Positions 20,205 through 50,819 of a stretch of DNA of 64,000 bases are shown here, in pieces. The position numbers and the translations under genes are program-made. Each line of letters starts with the position of its first letter. The stretch's first letter is position 1. The notes under the pieces are model-generated. The model searched no databases. It was not told where the DNA came from and saw only the letters and a list, made by a program, of their open reading frames with translations. The DNA comes from Bacteroidetes bacterium 2013_40CM_41_45 (GTDB lineage: Bacteria; Bacteroidota; Bacteroidia; AKYH767-A; 2013-40CM-41-45): positions 124,001 to 188,000 of the forward strand of contig NGFH01000001.1 in the NCBI GenBank assembly GCA_002215675.1. Reading direction: 5' to 3'.

Positions 20205-20245
20205 CTGAAAATAAAAAAGCCCTGCTTTACCGAACAGGACTTCTT
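20205..20245 (-). terminator. intrinsic terminator after the DUF6232 gene
   Basis: On the minus strand AAGTCCTG and CAGGGCTT form a stem around a 10-base loop, followed by TTTTTATTTT. Confidence 0.7.
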
Positions 20246-20250
20246 TTAGT

Positions 20251-20273
20251 GCGTCAACCTTACGGGGTTGCGT
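20251..20273. repeat. CCGUAA-hexaloop hairpin, copy 1
   Basis: CAACC-TTACGG-GGTTG on plus; on minus it reads CAACC-CCGTAA-GGTTG. Allowing one bulged base, the stem extends with GCG/CGT. It shares the ACC-TTACGG-GGT core with two hairpins near 39.5 kb. It lies between the DUF6232 stop and that gene's terminator. Confidence 0.6.
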
Positions 20274-39302: not shown

Positions 39303-39493
39303 TTTAGTTAGCAAATGCTTCAAAGTAAATGAAAAACAGGATGTGTGTTTTACACTTTATAAGTTTTTCTGAAAAATCTTACGCCTGTAATCTATTGCCT
39401 GAATGAAAAAAACAGCCGTTTATAGCAGGGCTATCATTGCATTGCAATCAGTGATTTAACCCTTAGGTCAGCAAAAACTAAACAGGGTTAAAC

Positions 39494-39514
39494 TTCAGCC
39501 CCGTAAGGTTGAAC
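39494..39514. repeat. CCGUAA-hexaloop hairpin, copy 2
   Basis: Plus strand TTCAGCC-CCGTAA-GGTTGAA: a 7-bp stem with one G-U pair around a CCGTAA loop. Located between the terC promoter region and the cysteine desulfurase stop. Confidence 0.6.
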
Positions 39515-39524
39515 TCAGAATCAG

Positions 39525-39544
39525 CCGTACCCCGTAAGGTGCGG
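39525..39544. repeat. CCGUAA-hexaloop hairpin, copy 3
   Basis: Plus strand CCGTACC-CCGTAA-GGTGCGG: a 7-bp stem with one U-G pair and the same loop as copy 2, 10 bp downstream of it, followed by TTGATTTTTTTTT. It could act as a terminator on plus, but no plus-strand gene ends here. Confidence 0.6.
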
Positions 39545-39587
39545 TTGATTTTTTTTTCACCCTATCCTAAACAGAAGGGACAAAAAA

Positions 39588-40851: not shown

Positions 40852-43800
40852 TTATTCTTCTTTAGTTTGCTTTACAAACAGTTTCTGCATGGGCTTAATA
40901 ATTTCGCTATTCAGCGATTTAAGGCGGATGAAATAGACACCATTCGGAATGAAGCGGATATCAACAGGGTCAACAATATTCAATCCTTTTTCTGCAGTTC
41001 CCACTTGCGAGAGAACTGTTTTTCCAAGCGCATCAATCAACTCAAATAACACAGGCCCGCTGGCGTCAGAATTAAAACTGTACTGAACTTCAGTCTGAGC
41101 CGGGTTTGGAAAAACAGATAGAACACTATTATCGAGGAAGCTAACAGCCACTAGCTGCGAGAAGGATTCCTTTCCGTCAAAATCAACTTGGCGAAGACGA
41201 TAATAACTTACACCCGGCAGAGGCATATTGTCGATGAGAGAATAATAAAGAGTCACTGAAGAATTTCCGGCTCCGTTTCTTCTGCCTACTTGTTCAAAGT
41301 TAATTCCATCAGAGCTGCGCTCAACCACAAAATGGTCATTATTAATTTCTGTTGCCGTAACCCAGGCTGTTAAAACTGTTACACCTTCTATATGCGCATC
41401 AAAGCTCAGCAATTCAACCGGAAGTGGCGCTCCCGATTGCCCAACTGTAAAATCAGAGAAGCCGGTCATGCCGTTGCGTTTTGTAATTGCTGCGGTGCTG
41501 GTTCCGTTGCAGGTGCCGTTCAAGGTCCATCCGCTGCCGGGATTTTTCAGAATTGTCCAGGCATTTCCGGTATTGTTTGTAACCATCGACATGTTACTGA
41601 ATAATAACATATCGTAAGTAGCAGAAGAAGCATTTGCTTCGGCAGTCAATGTCCAGTATCCATTATTAAACGGAGCAAGCGTTGCATAATTATTAGTAGG
41701 ACACTCAGGCCCCAGCGGACCGGGCTGAATAGGAACGGCTGCGTCATTGAAATATGATAAGATGGTCGGTATGCTGTGCGTACCAATAAAATCAACCTCT
41801 GCAAGATTTAATCCTTTAGCTGCTGTTCCAATGGGGAAATAATATGTTCCTGCCGAGCCGGTAAGACTTCTTCTGAGATTTCCTTCTACATAACTGCCTG
41901 CACCGAATGATGAAATTGCACCGGGAGCAGTATTAGTGACATGCAAAGTTTTAATTCCGGTTATTATTTTTCCTCCCGTAACGGTTCCCAACTGCAAATT
42001 GCCTCCAACATTAGCATTGTCAAGAATGGTCATGTGGTTAGAAGTCTTATTCATCCAAAGATTTCCGAATGTGTTGGCGCCAATCATAGAGCCGTCAAAA
42101 TATTGCGAGGTTGTTCCGGTAACCCGAACGGTAGATGTTGTGGCAGCGGTTACATTTCCGTTGTTTACAAAATTGCCGCATACATCAAGTTGGGCAGTGC
42201 CCGTAAGTGTTATGCTTGCCCCTGTCTTTATATCAAGTCCCCTGCATGCTGCAGTCGGTCCGGTTGGAATGACAGGATAATTTAATGCACCGGAGTAGAG
42301 AATGGCGCTGGTATTGCAATCTGGTGGACCGCAGTTTCCCCAGTTAGAGGGATCAAACCAGTCTGTGCTCACCGTTCCTGTCCAGAAAACTACGGCGGGT
42401 GGGCTTTGATAAATAATAGGAGAGGCACCAAAAGCATTAAAGTCCATGTCGAAACCAATATTATTTTGCCAATGGTTCATGAGGAACAGCAGGAATGTCT
42501 GACCTCCTGAAACAGCAAGGGAGGTATTAAATTCAGCTCCGCTGGGAGGAGAAGAATTAGACGGAGCGGCTGAACACATACCGGTACTATAGGTTATCGA
42601 TCCGTTACACGAAGGAAAATTTAGCGCGTTAAATGTAAGGTTACAACGCACCCACGGTAAATTGTTGGCATTAATCTGGGGGCATGCACCCGCTATGCGC
42701 GATGCCTGGTCAGAACCAAAGGAGGTTATATCCATTAGAACCCAGTCATAATCGGTCGCTGGGTAGGTAGTTCCGTATGGTTTAAGTCTCCACGCCAATG
42801 TTCCCGGGCCACTTGTGGTAAATACGAGCCATAATGAATTGAGCTCGCCTGATGTGAGACAACTATTATTTCCTGTTGTGAAATCACAAACCCAACCTGT
42901 TCCATAAAATCCCGGGCTGGGAATTGAGAATGTAGGACTGCAAATAGGTAACGGAACAACACAGTCCTGCCCCGCAACGTAAGGTTGTTGATTAACAGGA
43001 GTTGCTTGGTCTACAACAATAATGCTGTAATTTCCGGTATTGTTATTGATTCCGTCAACACGCACATAATACATCGTGCCCGATGTTAAGCCGCTTATAG
43101 CAATTTCCGAAGAAGAAATTAAAGGATTGGGAGCGTTACACGTGGGGCCTATCCTGTTACAGGACAACAACGTATAATTTGCAGGATTAGAACAACTGCC
43201 CGACAAGCTATACAGTGCAATTTGCGTGGAGCCGATAGTTCCCGATGAGGTGCGGATACGCACACTTCCTGATGCGGGAGCGATGAAAGAATGCCATGTG
43301 GCATTAATATTTCCCGTTGTCCAGCAACCCGGTACCGCTGCGGGTTCAGAAGCAGAACCGGTACATGATGTATTTCCATTCACACTAACAAGCAAGTCAA
43401 TGTATTGAGCATTGCATGGCAGGTCATTAGCCGGTGCAAGTCCGAATGACTGAATATTCAGGTTGTAGGTCGAAAACGCTGTTGGCGCACCAGCTTCATC
43501 AACAATAATATAATATGTTCCTGCAGAAGGAAAAGTTACCTGCGCAACAGAATTTCCTGATTGCGGTATAGGGGTAAGACAAACAGTGCCAACTGAACCC
43601 GGGCATCCGCTGTAAACGGCAAGTGTAGGCGTTCCGCTGGTTCCTGACAATGTAATGCTGGTACATTCCGGTCCGGTTGCTGTGTATTGATAAACGCGGT
43701 CTTCACCACTATATGATGTATTGCATATTCCTGTTTGCGATGTATAGTCGGCACCATAACATTGCGTGGTGTGACTGGTTACAGAGTAAGGCAAGGCACT

Positions 43801-45801
43801 TATAACCGTAGCATTGGCGCAGGTGGAACCTTGGAGAGGCCCCGGCGAAGGAGTAGGTGAACAGGTAAGATTTGAAACCCATCCCGCCAGATTTCCGAGG
43901 CCATCTGATTTGAAATGTGCTGTGAGACATCCGCCCGAAACGTTTGACGTTACCACACTGCCGCATCCTGCGCTGCTGGTGGGCCCGGCTAAATTGAAGA
44001 GAGGCACTGCCGATGTATCCGCTGTAAATGTACTGGCGGGTGTTCCGCTGAAAATTCTCAGGCGGTCTCCGGCATCATTCAGGAAAATGGATGTGAAAGA
44101 AATGGTAACATACTGGTTTGCCACTGCAGGACAAAGTTTTACCATCCCGTTTGCATTGTTAGAATAGTTAACAGGAAGGTCAAGCGCCGAATCGTAGAAA
44201 GGTGAACCGCACGAATAAAATGGTCCCAGAGTTCCAGATACAGGCACGTAATAATAACACGGGTTTACAACCAAAGCAATGGGAGCCGAAGCTGTCCATT
44301 GGGTGTAAACGGGGTCCATAAGGTCGCACGATTCGTTCGAAACGATTTCGCACCATACATTGTGATTACCCGCTGCTAAGGTTGCAAGCGTAGTATAGGT
44401 GATTGCGTTTCCAACAGGGGCGCCATCAAGATACCATGTATATGAAGGAGAACCTGCATTAAAAGCAGCTGCTGTAAAAGTAACCTGGTTGCCACGGCAA
44501 ATAGTGTCAGTTGGAAAATTGTGTGAGATGGCGACTACCGGTGGCTGATTAGGAGTAACACTAAATGTAAGTGATTGAGAAACTCGCGTAGAGGGAGAAT
44601 AACACACTACCGGAGATGTTGTTGGAGTAGGCCAGGTGACTGTAAGTGTAATCACATCTCCCGTTGCAAGATTAGATGTTTGCCAGGTAAGGGCACCGGG
44701 ATTTGAAATATTATTTTGGGTCAAAACAGGTGCTCCATTCTTCTTCCATATAAATGTATTAGGCGTAGGGACCGGGTTTATAAATGGTGGCGAAAAGACA
44801 TAAAAATCTATAGTCTGAAGTTCGCAAATGGTAGGATTCATATTTGTACTATCACCAATAACATTTCCCAGATAATCCATCGCATAAATGCGAAGCTGTG
44901 GAGAAGTAGTAAAAGCAGATACAGTAATGAGAACGCTGCTGAAACTGGAATGACAAACAGCTCCGCTATGAGTTGCTGTCCATCTAAGGGTATAAGTACC
45001 AGTACCGCCAGCAGGGGTAAACGTAGTATTGTTGGTATTCACATTACCAAATTGAGTTACTAATGTGCTGGGGCCTGAAAAAACGGACCATGTGCCCAGG
45101 CCACCAGGATTAGGAAAAGAGTTGGCAAGACTTATGGCATTCGCGGTTAATGTCAAGGATGGAGTCCCTGAACAAAGGGTTTGAGCCGAACCTGCATTTG
45201 GTGCAGGAGTAGCAACTCCCCAAAGAGCAATGTCGTCAAGAATTAACGGAACAGCTGCCGATGCACTGGAAGCATAAATTCTGAATGTTATAGATGAAGA
45301 CAGATTGCAAAATGACAGCACTGTTGATTGTACCGCACCGGGAGCAACCTGATTAGGAGCCTGGGTAGGTCCCATGATATTTGCATTGTAACCATCCGCA
45401 CTGGTCCTTACATAATAATTTATGACGGTGGCTACATTTCTTCTTGCTTTAAAAACCAACTGTGTTAATGATGCCCTGGCTCCGGCAGCAGGAGTAAAAG
45501 TAAACTCATAATATGTTGTTGTTGTAGATACCGGTGCTGTTGTTGGCCAATTGGTTGCAGCGTATTCACTGCCCGAGGCTAAGCATGTAATGGCACCATT
45601 CTGACTGAAGTTTGAAAAAGTCGCCAATGTAGCGGGTATCGCTGCCGTTGCAGCTAAGCTCGGACTTGCGCAGTTATTTGTGGCAGTTGTGAAAGTATAA
45701 ATACCCAACTGCGCCTGTGCAAAAGCATTGTTGGAAAAACCAACTACCAAACAAATGCAAAAAGAAATTTGATAAATCTCAGAGAGTAATTTTTTTTTCA
45801 T
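40852..45801 (-). CDS. giant T9SS-sorted adhesin-like protein, paralogue 1
   Basis: About 1649 residues from ATG 45801, which starts a signal peptide ending AFAQ; a GTG two codons earlier was not used. Order of parts: an N-terminal beta-sandwich domain (about 30-200), Ig-like repeats (about 200-510), a CUB-like core beginning YYYVPVSGTLGPFYSCG (about 515-800), pre-peptidase-like domains (ANDLPCNAQYI; NTGNYSIIV), a parallel-beta region near WFDPSNWGNCGPPDC, then the PVELLSF linker and a type A sorting domain (VFPNPAQTE to GVYFIRL). Cys residues are frequent. Probably a cell-surface adhesin; no enzymatic motif. The core is nearly the same as in the neighbouring paralogue. Confidence 0.88.
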   Translation of the reverse strand: MKKKLLSEIYQISFCICLVVGFSNNAFAQAQLGIYTFTTATNNCASPSLAATAAIPATLATFSNFSQNGAITCLASGSEYAATNWPTTAPVSTTTTYYEFTFTPAAGARASLTQLVFKARRNVATVINYYVRTSADGYNANIMGPTQAPNQVAPGAVQSTVLSFCNLSSSITFRIYASSASAAVPLILDDIALWGVATPAPNAGSAQTLCSGTPSLTLTANAISLANSFPNPGGLGTWSVFSGPSTLVTQFGNVNTNNTTFTPAGGTGTYTLRWTATHSGAVCHSSFSSVLITVSAFTTSPQLRIYAMDYLGNVIGDSTNMNPTICELQTIDFYVFSPPFINPVPTPNTFIWKKNGAPVLTQNNISNPGALTWQTSNLATGDVITLTVTWPTPTTSPVVCYSPSTRVSQSLTFSVTPNQPPVVAISHNFPTDTICRGNQVTFTAAAFNAGSPSYTWYLDGAPVGNAITYTTLATLAAGNHNVWCEIVSNESCDLMDPVYTQWTASAPIALVVNPCYYYVPVSGTLGPFYSCGSPFYDSALDLPVNYSNNANGMVKLCPAVANQYVTISFTSIFLNDAGDRLRIFSGTPASTFTADTSAVPLFNLAGPTSSAGCGSVVTSNVSGGCLTAHFKSDGLGNLAGWVSNLTCSPTPSPGPLQGSTCANATVISALPYSVTSHTTQCYGADYTSQTGICNTSYSGEDRVYQYTATGPECTSITLSGTSGTPTLAVYSGCPGSVGTVCLTPIPQSGNSVAQVTFPSAGTYYIIVDEAGAPTAFSTYNLNIQSFGLAPANDLPCNAQYIDLLVSVNGNTSCTGSASEPAAVPGCWTTGNINATWHSFIAPASGSVRIRTSSGTIGSTQIALYSLSGSCSNPANYTLLSCNRIGPTCNAPNPLISSSEIAISGLTSGTMYYVRVDGINNNTGNYSIIVVDQATPVNQQPYVAGQDCVVPLPICSPTFSIPSPGFYGTGWVCDFTTGNNSCLTSGELNSLWLVFTTSGPGTLAWRLKPYGTTYPATDYDWVLMDITSFGSDQASRIAGACPQINANNLPWVRCNLTFNALNFPSCNGSITYSTGMCSAAPSNSSPPSGAEFNTSLAVSGGQTFLLFLMNHWQNNIGFDMDFNAFGASPIIYQSPPAVVFWTGTVSTDWFDPSNWGNCGPPDCNTSAILYSGALNYPVIPTGPTAACRGLDIKTGASITLTGTAQLDVCGNFVNNGNVTAATTSTVRVTGTTSQYFDGSMIGANTFGNLWMNKTSNHMTILDNANVGGNLQLGTVTGGKIITGIKTLHVTNTAPGAISSFGAGSYVEGNLRRSLTGSAGTYYFPIGTAAKGLNLAEVDFIGTHSIPTILSYFNDAAVPIQPGPLGPECPTNNYATLAPFNNGYWTLTAEANASSATYDMLLFSNMSMVTNNTGNAWTILKNPGSGWTLNGTCNGTSTAAITKRNGMTGFSDFTVGQSGAPLPVELLSFDAHIEGVTVLTAWVTATEINNDHFVVERSSDGINFEQVGRRNGAGNSSVTLYYSLIDNMPLPGVSYYRLRQVDFDGKESFSQLVAVSFLDNSVLSVFPNPAQTEVQYSFNSDASGPVLFELIDALGKTVLSQVGTAEKGLNIVDPVDIRFIPNGVYFIRLKSLNSEIIKPMQKLFVKQTKEE

Positions 45802-45874
45802 GAGCACTGATTTAAGATGAAAAAATATTTTTTGTTGCCATTAATCCATCTGCTCTCGCCTACACCAGAACTGC

Positions 45875-45959: not shown

Positions 45960-48900
45960 TCACTCCTGAATTTGCCTTACAAACCGTGCTTGCATGGGCT
46001 CTATGATTTCATTTCCGGCAGATTTTATCCTTATGAAATATGCTCCCTGGGGCAAGTCGCGGACACTGTAGTCATTAATTTCATTCAAACCTTTCTTTAC
46101 ATCCAGCAACTCCGACAACTGAACTTTTCCGAGCATGTCTATAATTTCCAGGTTAACTTTTCCCTCTGCAGCCGTAGTAAATCTCATATTGATGCTTGAA
46201 GTTTGTGCCGGGTTGGGAAATACATTAAGCACATTATCATTCACGAAACTTACAGCAACCAAACGGGACTTAGTATCAGTGCCATCAAAGTCAACTTCAC
46301 GAAGGCGGTAATAGCTGATGCCTTTTATCGGCTTTGTATCCAGCATGGAATAATAAAGTGTTACCGAGGAATTTCCTGAACCCCTTCTTGTGCCAACCAT
46401 TTCGAAATTAATTCCATCCTGGCTTCGTTCAATAACAAAATAATCACAGTTCACTTCTGTAGCTGTAACCCATGTGGTGAGCACATCTTCACTCTGTATC
46501 ACGGCATCAAAGTTGAGCAAGTCAACCGGCAGAGGAAGTCCCGACTGCCCTGAAGTGAAAACTGAAAACCCGCTCATGTTATCACGTGCTGTGGCAGAAG
46601 CGGTGCTGACTATGCAATTACCGTTCAAGGTCCACGGTCCGGCTGGAGTAGATGCTTTCAATACCGTCCACGCATTAGCCCCCGAACTATTGGTATAGTT
46701 TAAATTATAGAGCGTCATCTTGTAAGTTGCAGAGCCGGCATTTGCATTAGCAGTCAAAGTCCAATAACCATTGTTCAACGGAGCCATGGTTGAAAAATCA
46801 TTTGTGGGACACTCCGGCCCGAGTGGCCCCGGCTGGATGGGAACTGGTGTGCCTGTGAAGTAGCCAAGAATGTTACCGATAGAATGTGTTCCATAAAATT
46901 GAACAGAAGCCAGTTGAAAGCCCGCAGTTGAAGTTCCGACCGGCCAGTAATATGTTCCGGCGGTGCCGGTTAAATTTCTTTTCAGGTTTCCTTCTACATA
47001 GCTTCCCGGTCCGCCCGATGTTACAGAACCCGGTGCGGTATTGGTGCTGTATAAAATTTTGCTGCCCGTAATAATTTTCCCTCCTGTAACATTGCCCAGA
47101 GTAAGAGTGCCCGCTAAATTGGCATGATCTAAAATGGTCATGTGGTTGGATGTTTTATTCATCCATAAGTTATCGAATGCACTCGAGCCAATCATATTGC
47201 CGTCAAAATACTGCGCTCCCGTTCCCATAACCCGCACGGTGGATGTTGGAGCAGCTATCAGACTCCCGTTGTTCACATAATTGCGGCAGATATCTAATTG
47301 CCTTCCGGCATTAATGGTAACCGAGGCGCCTGCTTTAATATCAAGGTCGCGGCACACAGCACCATTGGCATTAATCACAGGCATAAATGCAGAGCCGACA
47401 GTAATAACTGCTGTAGTGCTACAGTTAGGAGGGCCGCAGTTTCCCCAGTTAACAGGGTCAAACCAGTCCGTAGTATTTGCTCCTGCTGTCCAGTACAAGA
47501 CACTTGGTGGATTCTGATATGCAATAGGTGAAACACCGAAGGCATTAAAATCTATGGTGAATCCTCTTTGGTTTTGAGTCCAGTTGCTTAGATGGAGAAG
47601 GAATGTTTGATTGGGAGTAACAGCAAGAGAAGAACAGAAGCTGGGGCCAAATGGGCTCGTTGATATAGCAGTTGAAGACGGGCACATGCCTGTTTGATAC
47701 TGAGAGGTTGCACAAGGTGCAAATAAGATAACATCGCTGATGTTGCAGCGCACCCAAGGCAAGTTATTGTTATTTATCTGCGGGCATGCGTTAGCTATGC
47801 GTGTTGCCTGGTCAGGCCCGAAAGAAGTTATGTCCATCAGTATCCAGTCGTAATCAACATACGTACTCCCGTTAGGTGTTAACAGCCATGATAACATTCC
47901 GGTGCCATTGGTAGTAAATACGTACCAGGCAGAAGAACGTTCTCCGGCAAACATGCAGGTATTATTTACGGTTCCGAAATCGCAAACCCATCCTGTAGAA
48001 ATAAAACCGGGGTCCCCCACCTGGAATGTGCTGTTACAAACCGTCATAGGCACAACGCAATCCTGCCCGTCAGAATAGGGCTGCTGTGTGCTGTTTACAT
48101 CGGCAACAATAATGCTGTAATTACCGGTGTTGTTATTTCTTCCGTCCACTCTTATGTAGTATATGGTATTTGGTACAAGGTTGCTGTATATAATATCAGA
48201 CGAGGAAGGACTTGGAGTGGATGCACAACTTGGCCCCGCCTGGCTACACGCAATCAGGCTAAGCGAATTGCAGTTGCCGGAATAAAGTGCAATTTGAGTC
48301 ATATCAATAGTTCCCGGAGTAGTTCTAATATGTACAGCAGACGGATTGGGAGTAGCAGGAGAAGTGAAACTGTACCAGGTTGTATTCAAATTGCCTCCGG
48401 TCCAACAACCGGGAACAGCAGGTTCTGATGCCGAGCCGGTGCATGAGTTGTTACCGTTTGCGTTCACCAGCAAGTCAAGATACTGAGCGTTGCAAGGCAG
48501 ATCATTAGCCGGTGCAAGTCCGAATGACTGAATGTTGAGGTTGTAATTTGAAAAAGCTGTTGCTCCACCGGCTTCATCAACGATAATGTAATATGTTCCC
48601 GCAGAGGGAAAAGTTACCTGCGCAACAGAATTTCCCGATTGCGGTATAGGAGTAAGGCAAACTGTGCCCGCGGCACCAGGGCATCCGGTGTAAACTGAAA
48701 GTGTAGGTGTTCCACTCGTTCCTGACAATGTCATGCTTGTACACTCCGGTCCGGTTGCCGTGTATTGATAAACGCGGTCTTCGCCATTGTATGTTGTATT
48801 ACAGATTCCTGACTGCAACTGGTAATCCGAACCATAACACTGTGTTGTGTGACTGGTTACTGAGTATGGTAATGCAGCAATTACCGTGGGGTTTCCACAA

Positions 48901-50819
48901 GTGGAACCGGGCAACGGCCCTGCTGAAGGAGTTGGTGAACAGGTAATGTTTGATACCCATCCTGCAGAATTACCAAAACCGTCTGATTTAAAATGCGCAG
49001 TAAGACATCCTCCTGAAACATTAGAGGTTACCACGCTGCCGCATCCTGCGCTGCTGGTAGGTCCGGCTAAATTGAAAAGAGGCGCGCCCGATGTATCAGC
49101 CGTAAAAGTGCTCGAAGGGGTTCCGCTGAAAATTCTCAGGCGGTCTCCGGCATCACTCAGACTAATGGACGTGAAAGAAATGGTGACGTACTGGCTTGCT
49201 ACTGCCGGGCAAAGTTTTACAAGCCCGTTTGCACTGTTCGAATAGTTTACAGGAAGGTCAAGCGCTGAATCATAGAAAGGCGAACCGCATGAATAAAATG
49301 GTCCCAGAGTTCCTGATGCAGGCACGTAATAATAGCATGGGTCTACAACCAAAGCAACAGGAGGAGATGTTGCCACATTATTAAAAATTGGGGGAGCACT
49401 GTCACAGGGTTCGCTGGAAGTAGCATCACACCAAATGTTATGAGTACCTACTGACAATGTTGCGGACGTAATGTATGTGCTGGCTGTTCCCACTGGAGCA
49501 CCGTCAAGGTACCATTGATACGTAGGAGTTCCCGCTTCAAGGGGATATGCAGTGAAAGTTACCTGGTTGCCGCGGCAGATAGTATCTGTGGGAAAGTTGT
49601 GTCCAATGGTAACCAATGGCGGCTGGTTGGCGGTAACGGTGAACTGATCGCTTTGGGATATCCTTGGATTGGGTGACATGCATGCTCCGGGCCAGTTAAC
49701 TTCAAGGGTCACAACGTCATTATTCGCAAGCGATGACGTAGAATAAGTGGCAGAAAAATAATTTCCAACATTATTTTGAACCAGCACAGGTGCACCATTT
49801 ACTTTCCATGTATATGTGTTGGGCGTTACATTGATAAAGGGAGAATTAACATAGAAATCTACCTCTTCAAACTGGCAAATGGTAGGATTAGGCGGAATAG
49901 GATTACCAAAAATGTCGAGGGTATAAGTGGTTAGAGCAGGAGGAGTACTTGGATTATTAACCGTTACAGTAACGGTATTGCTTGTTAGAGGACATGCGCC
50001 ACCAACGGCACAGCGGTATTGATAACTGCCGGCCGCAAGACCGGAAACAGTAAGCGAAGAAGTAGTGTTACCTGAATACACTGCACCTGCAGGAGTACCG
50101 TTAACTACAGGTAGACCTGTCGGAACATAAATCCATTGGTATGTCCATGAAGGCCCCGATGATGTTGTTAAACTAATTGCAGTCGAACCGCCTGCACAAA
50201 CGGGATTCGGAGAAGCAGCGGGCTGTGATGATATACCGATAATGGTTTGTGTACCTCCAATATTACCTGCACCTGCCGGAGTAGGGCTTCCCCCTGTTAT
50301 GGTAAGGTTCGTTGTTGCTAAAGCTGCTACCGTTACTGTATTTCCAATTGTCGGAGTTGAAGCAACATCCATAGTTATCCAAAAATAATAAGTTCCTCCA
50401 TTGGTATTCATAAGAGTAGCTAAAAAACCAGCCGCGGGAAATGTTTGAAGCCCTGGACCGCCTGGAGTTAATGTTTGGATTAAAGTAGTGGCTGTTGCAA
50501 AACTTGTATTAGTACCTCGCCATAATTTAAAATTTAAAATGCTTGCAGCAGCATACCCGGCATTAGTTGTAAAACTTAACCCAGTTAAACTGCTCGCTGT
50601 CAAACTCCCTGCAGAACCGATAGTAAAATAATAAATAGGAACTTTTACTGCATTGGGACATACATTAGCTGCGGCAACAGCAGGATTAGGTGATGCAAGC
50701 GTATAGATCCACGCAGCTTTCGTTGCTAATGGGAATAAAAAAAATATCACAGAGAATGCAACTATTATTGCATTACGTATTACAGATGTCAGGTTTAAAA
50801 CCGGGTAATTTTTTCTCAT
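45960..50819 (-). CDS. giant T9SS-sorted adhesin-like protein, paralogue 2
   Basis: 1619 residues with a signal peptide (through ATKAA). The N-terminal part differs from paralogue 1: a BatD/Big-like domain with SPNPAVAAANVCPNAVKVPIYYF and an Ig-like segment (about 200-290). From about residue 385 on it follows paralogue 1 domain by domain: the QPPLVTIGHNFPTDTICRG Ig-like unit, a CUB-like core (YYYVPASGTLGPFYSCG), the ANDLPCNAQYL and NTGNYSIIV repeats, the WFDPVNWGNCGPPNC region, a PVDLLNF linker and a type A sorting domain (VFPNPAQTS to GAYFIRI). Same strand and order, 158 bp upstream of paralogue 1, so a tandem duplication with a replaced N-terminus. Confidence 0.88.
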   Translation of the reverse strand: MRKNYPVLNLTSVIRNAIIVAFSVIFFLFPLATKAAWIYTLASPNPAVAAANVCPNAVKVPIYYFTIGSAGSLTASSLTGLSFTTNAGYAAASILNFKLWRGTNTSFATATTLIQTLTPGGPGLQTFPAAGFLATLMNTNGGTYYFWITMDVASTPTIGNTVTVAALATTNLTITGGSPTPAGAGNIGGTQTIIGISSQPAASPNPVCAGGSTAISLTTSSGPSWTYQWIYVPTGLPVVNGTPAGAVYSGNTTSSLTVSGLAAGSYQYRCAVGGACPLTSNTVTVTVNNPSTPPALTTYTLDIFGNPIPPNPTICQFEEVDFYVNSPFINVTPNTYTWKVNGAPVLVQNNVGNYFSATYSTSSLANNDVVTLEVNWPGACMSPNPRISQSDQFTVTANQPPLVTIGHNFPTDTICRGNQVTFTAYPLEAGTPTYQWYLDGAPVGTASTYITSATLSVGTHNIWCDATSSEPCDSAPPIFNNVATSPPVALVVDPCYYYVPASGTLGPFYSCGSPFYDSALDLPVNYSNSANGLVKLCPAVASQYVTISFTSISLSDAGDRLRIFSGTPSSTFTADTSGAPLFNLAGPTSSAGCGSVVTSNVSGGCLTAHFKSDGFGNSAGWVSNITCSPTPSAGPLPGSTCGNPTVIAALPYSVTSHTTQCYGSDYQLQSGICNTTYNGEDRVYQYTATGPECTSMTLSGTSGTPTLSVYTGCPGAAGTVCLTPIPQSGNSVAQVTFPSAGTYYIIVDEAGGATAFSNYNLNIQSFGLAPANDLPCNAQYLDLLVNANGNNSCTGSASEPAVPGCWTGGNLNTTWYSFTSPATPNPSAVHIRTTPGTIDMTQIALYSGNCNSLSLIACSQAGPSCASTPSPSSSDIIYSNLVPNTIYYIRVDGRNNNTGNYSIIVADVNSTQQPYSDGQDCVVPMTVCNSTFQVGDPGFISTGWVCDFGTVNNTCMFAGERSSAWYVFTTNGTGMLSWLLTPNGSTYVDYDWILMDITSFGPDQATRIANACPQINNNNLPWVRCNISDVILFAPCATSQYQTGMCPSSTAISTSPFGPSFCSSLAVTPNQTFLLHLSNWTQNQRGFTIDFNAFGVSPIAYQNPPSVLYWTAGANTTDWFDPVNWGNCGPPNCSTTAVITVGSAFMPVINANGAVCRDLDIKAGASVTINAGRQLDICRNYVNNGSLIAAPTSTVRVMGTGAQYFDGNMIGSSAFDNLWMNKTSNHMTILDHANLAGTLTLGNVTGGKIITGSKILYSTNTAPGSVTSGGPGSYVEGNLKRNLTGTAGTYYWPVGTSTAGFQLASVQFYGTHSIGNILGYFTGTPVPIQPGPLGPECPTNDFSTMAPLNNGYWTLTANANAGSATYKMTLYNLNYTNSSGANAWTVLKASTPAGPWTLNGNCIVSTASATARDNMSGFSVFTSGQSGLPLPVDLLNFDAVIQSEDVLTTWVTATEVNCDYFVIERSQDGINFEMVGTRRGSGNSSVTLYYSMLDTKPIKGISYYRLREVDFDGTDTKSRLVAVSFVNDNVLNVFPNPAQTSSINMRFTTAAEGKVNLEIIDMLGKVQLSELLDVKKGLNEINDYSVRDLPQGAYFIRIKSAGNEIIEPMQARFVRQIQE

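Follow-up and report, generated by a model that had tools for sequence, protein, structure and literature searches.

We describe a predicted small-RNA gene of Bacteroidota that has its own promoter and intrinsic terminator and repeats a hairpin with the hexaloop CCGUAA. It lies at 39.5 kb of the window, i.e. the whole stretch of 64,000 nucleotides of Bacteroidetes bacterium 2013_40CM_41_45 DNA analysed here. A structured small RNA at this place is well supported, as far as sequence alone can tell. Covarying structured hairpins, an autonomous gene position, a promoter signature, a conserved loop and a presence in phages can all be read from the sequences. From these features we infer, with a probability of about 0.5 and without binding data, that the RNA acts in the manner of CsrB/RsmZ as a multivalent element docking or titrating an unknown CCGUAA-loop-binding protein. 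The preliminary description of three hairpins with a CCGTAA loop, all of which are present in the window, was confirmed as a real observation and one larger than described.

Table 1. Features of the predicted small-RNA locus and of the single hairpin at 20 kb (positions in the window).
Feature	Position	Strand	Remark
Predicted small RNA gene, ~110 nt	39446..39557	+	start inferred from -7 box, end from terminator
Palindromic operator CTTACGCCTGTAAT, proposed activator site of small-RNA promoter	39378..39391	+	consensus CTTACAnnTGTAAG
Bacteroidota-type -7 box TATCATTG (TAnnnTTG)	39432..39439	+	47 bp downstream of palindrome centre
5′ hairpin UUUAACCCUU...GGGUUAAA, loop long and variable	39455..39492	+	predicted by folding
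Hairpin 1, loop CCGUAA 39501-39506, no T tract after	39494..39513	+	
Hairpin 2, 15-bp stem, loop CCGUAA 39532-39537	39517..39552	+	predicted intrinsic terminator, T tract 39549-39557
Single CCGUAA-loop hairpin, 3′ UTR of DUF6232 gene	20250..20273	-	24 bp after stop (20297)
Hairpin AAGUCCUG..CAGGGCUU and T-run, different loop, terminator	20211..20242	-	next after the 20250-20273 hairpin

The gene is flanked by a divergent TerC gene and a convergent gene for a class-V aminotransferase of the cysteine desulfurase type. G-U wobbles in the hairpins assign the RNA to the + strand. Folding of the predicted transcript yielded -39.6 kcal/mol (z = -5.6), and 5′ stems of the AAACC/GGUUU type comparable to that of the window appeared in the folds of four other loci (L124, L128, L135 and L136). 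Hairpin 1 (TTCAGCC-CCGTAA-GGTTGAA) had been placed correctly except for its end, which is at 39513 rather than 39514, and hairpin 2 is longer than described. The two arms of the latter (39517-39531 and 39538-39552) lead into nine T, the predicted form of a textbook intrinsic terminator. Transcription and its start at 39446 are inferred and not backed by expression data. Further along the window, two adjacent ORFs on the - strand (40852-45807 and 45960-50819) encode 1651 and 1619 aa; the first bears a type IX secretion sorting domain, and near-identical hairpin sequences at 43018 and 48108 suggest that the two are tandem paralogues.

The stems of these hairpins appear free to change as long as pairing holds, whereas the loop is constant. 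For the tandem pair, a covariance model was built from 18 sequences and 17 base pairs, 12 of which vary on both sides. Paired cells in this alignment amounted to 90.8%, as against 74.7% in shuffled and at most 49.5% in slid controls. We also collected every CCGTAA with another CCGTAA within 60 nt in array loci without requiring a stem. We obtained 98 distinct 22-mers. In 89 of them the loop is enclosed by four or more contiguous pairs; the type of pair differs among hairpins at each of the eight positions, and the covariation score is 0.638 compared with 0.223 in shuffled and no more than 0.190 in slid controls. The pair closing the loop is usually C-G, with A-U or U-A possible. The proposed covariation around a fixed loop is thus far above both controls in relatives. 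In the folds of 30 arrays, 79 hairpins carried CCGUAA and each other loop was seen once. The count of 79 is selected because the arrays were found via the CCGUAA motif; the absence of a competing recurrent loop is not.

A genome-wide search recovered more copies in the own genome and in related genomes, in keeping with the preliminary description. The 12-mer ACCCCGTAAGGT occurs three times in the 3.38-Mb genome, twice inside the window, compared with no occurrence of its reversed control. Of the ten copies of the 10-mer CCCCGTAAGG, four form two tandem pairs (the second at C2:419953/419985), one is the 20251 copy, two are single terminators and three lie where there is no real stem; the covariance model has four matches in this genome. 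The third hairpin originally reported, at 20251, does exist, its loop reading CCGTAA on the - strand within CAACC-CCGTAA-GGTTG (5 bp and additional outer pairs), but it is a 3′-UTR hairpin and not a third copy of the small-RNA gene; the promoter signature was not found there. Model R1 matches this hairpin and the subsequent one at 46.4 bits (C7:144203-144274). No relatives of the adjoining DUF6232 gene were found in the order.

Each of the 11 genomes in the window's family (f1) has tandem CCGUAA hairpins 27-32 nt apart. The covariance model finds 1-5 copies in each of them, at least one per genome at E ~1e-11 or better, bearing in mind that many genomes are drafts and the E-values rough. Across 41 genomes (own and relatives) CCCCGTAAGG is mostly tandem, and almost all genomes of the family have such pairs. 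In the order's other families the arrays comprise 3-9 hairpins, and such arrays are sparse in other Bacteroidota. Array units of about 100 nt come in two types. Type B has two hairpins and type A three, the latter being CAAT-CCCGTAAG-ATTG, TCAA-CCCCGTAAGG-TTGA and CCCAG-CCCCGTAAGG-CTGGG with a T-run.

The genomic surroundings of the arrays indicate an independent gene. In families f1 and f4 the gene upstream almost always points away from the array and the one downstream mostly points towards it, which means that at these loci the RNA is neither leader nor trailer of an mRNA. Type B arrays sit between ribBA, identified from its sequence, and a gene of ~1450 aa. Arrays of family f4 (L139, L140, L141, L142 and L251) likewise lie next to ribBA, which speaks for common descent across families. 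Next to type A arrays lies a gene of ~175 aa and then a TonB-receptor-like gene, and one such locus (L132) carries a cobalamin riboswitch. Several f4 loci (L033, L141, L142, L186 and L251) have G/U-rich repeated linkers (ATGGTTAGNTTTT..GGTTGATTGTCAG) between the hairpins and a GTCAG/CTGAC lower stem; this linker may be a second recognition element.

Beyond the order, the covariance model gave few matches among 395 sampled genomes of the phylum. They include a pair in G381, pairs in the GC-rich genomes G176 and G224, and five hairpins with a terminator in G074. A search for pairs in the same sample matched 11 genomes, five of which (G000, G074, G176, G283 and G381) represent arrays also seen otherwise; the hits in the remaining ones were not folded and are probably due to chance. 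Across the 395 genomes, the 12-mer hairpin GCCCCGTAAGGC is not visibly enriched over a reversed-loop control, which speaks against a general terminator loop. The 49 copies of CCCCGTAAGG in G024 did not hold as arrays: 30 inspected places had little or no stem, many of them in genes, and a genuine array is limited to a single cluster of four. Weak or missing stems and a frequent genic position mark these copies as a different iterated DNA motif, which is genus-specific and unrelated to the small RNA. In that genome, dispersed copies of ATCCCCGTAAGGG(A/T) number about 45 (at L143-L172, for example), many of them genic and stemless, compared with three of the reversed control.

Most f1 arrays share the palindrome CTTACAnnTGTAAG at 104-125 bp ahead of the first loop, and it recurs 168-180 bp ahead of the first loop in L141, L142 and L244, which belong to two other families. 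At 13 of the 22 loci tested, from three families, a TAnnnTTG box follows 46-48 bp past the palindrome centre; palindrome and box coincide at only 0.4% of random genomic places and 0.6% of AT-rich ones. The box is similar to the -7 element of Bacteroidota, TAnnTTTG, and this geometry would put the palindrome near -60. The palindrome statistic is partly circular because the palindrome was defined on those loci. The same applies to the counts of the loop, since both motifs were first noticed in sequences that were later counted; spacing and stem covariation are less affected. For the family's type A arrays, no -7 box was found at the standard distance, and near-exact palindromes are no more frequent genome-wide than the reversed control. 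Those exact CTTACAnnTGTAAG palindromes that were inspected are often found 66-106 bp ahead of a start codon, in several cases that of a secreted or surface-type gene (in relatives at L302, L313, L314, L316, L264 and L266); this pattern points to a wider regulon, probably under the same activator.

The module is not confined to bacterial chromosomes. Scanning IMG/VR for two CCCCGTAAGG within 42 bp returned 34 contigs. Thirteen low-GC T4-like phage contigs carry TAACC-CCGTAA-GGTTA and, after ~10 nt, CCCGACC-CCGTAA-GGTCGGG with a T-run, and their scores with the bacterial model, 62-74 bits, reach the level of the model's own members. Many other matches have stems of 2-3 bp only. Gene content was read in four contigs; in these, the module directly follows a T4-like major capsid gene, identified by similarity to annotated capsid genes, and the next substantial gene resembles, by sequence only, a PhoH-like ATPase. 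The nearest named relatives of these phages infect Flavobacterium, Rhodothermus phage RM378 being more distant. The CCGUAA module was not found in the named relatives. Viral contigs with at least three CCCGTAAG were considered as arrays and rejected: all contain coding-type repeats with stems of 0-2 bp, hence there are no phage arrays of three or more. That phages carry this module too suggests a role for the system in infection.

A location behind a capsid gene raises the question whether CCGUAA hairpins merely protect RNA 3′ ends, by an unusually stable loop or a protecting protein, and are appended as a stability or termination module to RNAs needing persistence, e.g. capsid or dnaK mRNAs or a stable small RNA. 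Indeed, the last hairpin of an array is nearly always a terminator, and single CCGUAA terminators exist. Moreover, eight CCGUAA hairpins in G176 (L252 6106-6350, reverse strand) and one in G224 (L261 6138) come directly after a gene with a DnaK-like C-terminus, on which its naming as dnaK rests; like the phage copy, they are in 3′ UTRs of presumably abundant mRNAs. We nevertheless consider this explanation the less likely one, although a role in 3′-end stability is still possible. Upstream non-terminating hairpins hold the loop as strictly as terminating ones, and the loop occurs in only 2 of 111 terminators predicted in a 464-kb sample of the own genome (400 kb plus the window), which also rules it out as a general terminator loop; both observations contradict a pure terminator role. 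In addition, a named Flavobacterium phage relative ends its capsid gene with a UUCG-loop terminator, and the common regulated promoter points to a regulatory RNA.

Lower still ranks a base-pairing small RNA whose repeated loop serves as a seed for UUACGG in mRNAs or another RNA. An exposed invariant six-base loop in tandem would suit this role, there being sRNAs with several identical loops, but TTACGG is not enriched among 332 own genes, neither at start regions (5 observed versus 6.5 expected), where it gives no sign of broad base-pairing by the loop, nor just downstream of genes (6 versus 7.5). A seed fixed across classes and phages would, furthermore, need an equally fixed target, which makes this reading rather improbable. 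A dispersed extragenic palindrome of the REP/BIME/MITE kind, one of two possibilities originally raised, would account for several intergenic copies per genome and some tandem repetition (observed at L245) but can practically be dismissed, given about four copies per genome (four model matches in the own one) that behave as homologous genes in fixed contexts, orthologous positions across genera, conservation of the loop instead of the stem, and an own promoter. The other possibility, a structured RNA, has gained strong support from many further copies in relatives, compensatory stem changes around a fixed loop, conserved synteny and a common promoter architecture.

The docking or titration reading builds on the combination of a strict loop, a free stem and tandem repetition, which are the requirements of a loop-reading protein. 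A fixed loop that is kept with its own promoter in relatives, and as a module in phages, is probably a docking site for an unknown RNA-binding regulator. We propose that an activator binding the palindrome would turn the small RNA on and that the 2-9 loops per RNA would then occupy the loop-recognising protein as a decoy or sponge. Its occupancy might alter the fate of mRNAs carrying single CCGUAA hairpins, candidates being those with such 3′ UTRs as dnaK in some relatives and DUF6232 in the window genome. Protein binding and titration remain inferences.

Two obvious candidates for a general partner can be excluded. CsrA is absent from all 42 of 42 genomes of the order, with positive controls, and a CsrA-type sponge was rejected on this basis. 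In Bacteroides, the RNA-binding regulators known are RRM proteins. The window's genome, which is 99.5% complete, has no RRM_1 protein, and neither do other array carriers such as G019, G022, G024, G025 and G039. Consequently, neither protein can be the general partner in the order, and the partner in the window genome would have to be of a new type. All ten other genomes of the window's family do possess an RRM_1 protein. Whether the pieces form an independently evolved Gac/Rsm-like circuit of Bacteroidota is doubtful at present: it would consist of an activator, a sponge RNA, a new class of CCGUAA-loop-binding protein that is neither CsrA nor RRM, and a two-loop module on the capsid mRNA by which T4-like phages of these hosts tap or disarm it. 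Post-transcriptional control in Bacteroidota is largely open, and the order lacks CsrA, the classical small-RNA helper. With its invariant loop and recognisable promoter, this conserved RNA family offers a concrete bait for the missing RNA-binding protein.

Small RNAs with CCGUAA-loop hairpins appear to be previously undescribed, as there is no Rfam 15 match above the gathering score at the element, in the window or in related loci, and no paper describing such an RNA was found in the literature searched. CsrB/RsmZ are decoy or sponge RNAs for CsrA/RsmA, represented by CsrB/CsrC and RsmX/Y/Z in Gammaproteobacteria. Like these, the RNA is autonomous and intrinsically terminated and repeats one loop motif in several hairpins (here 2-9 per array). 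It also has a palindromic activator box upstream with the same TGTAAG half-site as the GacA box. The GacA box is TGTAAG-N6-CTTACA (PMC8523701, PMC3171408), whereas the element found here, CTTACA-N2-TGTAAG, has the half-sites in the opposite arrangement and does not meet the GacA/UvrY definition. Thus, the small RNA resembles CsrB/RsmZ in layout and fails two defining features: its only recurrent loop is CCGUAA instead of GGA, and the order lacks a CsrA/RsmA protein. FopS and GibS of Bacteroides are likewise multicopy Bacteroidota small RNAs ending in a terminator hairpin, linked to the RNA-binding protein RbpB (PMC11697453). FopS, however, has a seed in a single-stranded 5′ segment and a lone terminator hairpin (PMC11697453) and shows no repeated loop, in contrast to the 5′ hairpin and at least two CCGUAA hairpins of the RNA described here, and an RbpB-type RRM partner was not found in the window's genome. 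With Rho-independent terminators of preferred loop, e.g. UUCG, the element shares an ordinary last hairpin and T tract, but CCGUAA also occupies non-terminating hairpins and is rare among the other terminators of the genome. Finally, the hairpins recall REP/BIME elements in being intergenic and sometimes tandem; here, however, loops rather than stems are conserved, the stems covary, and the few copies are distinguished by fixed synteny and a promoter.
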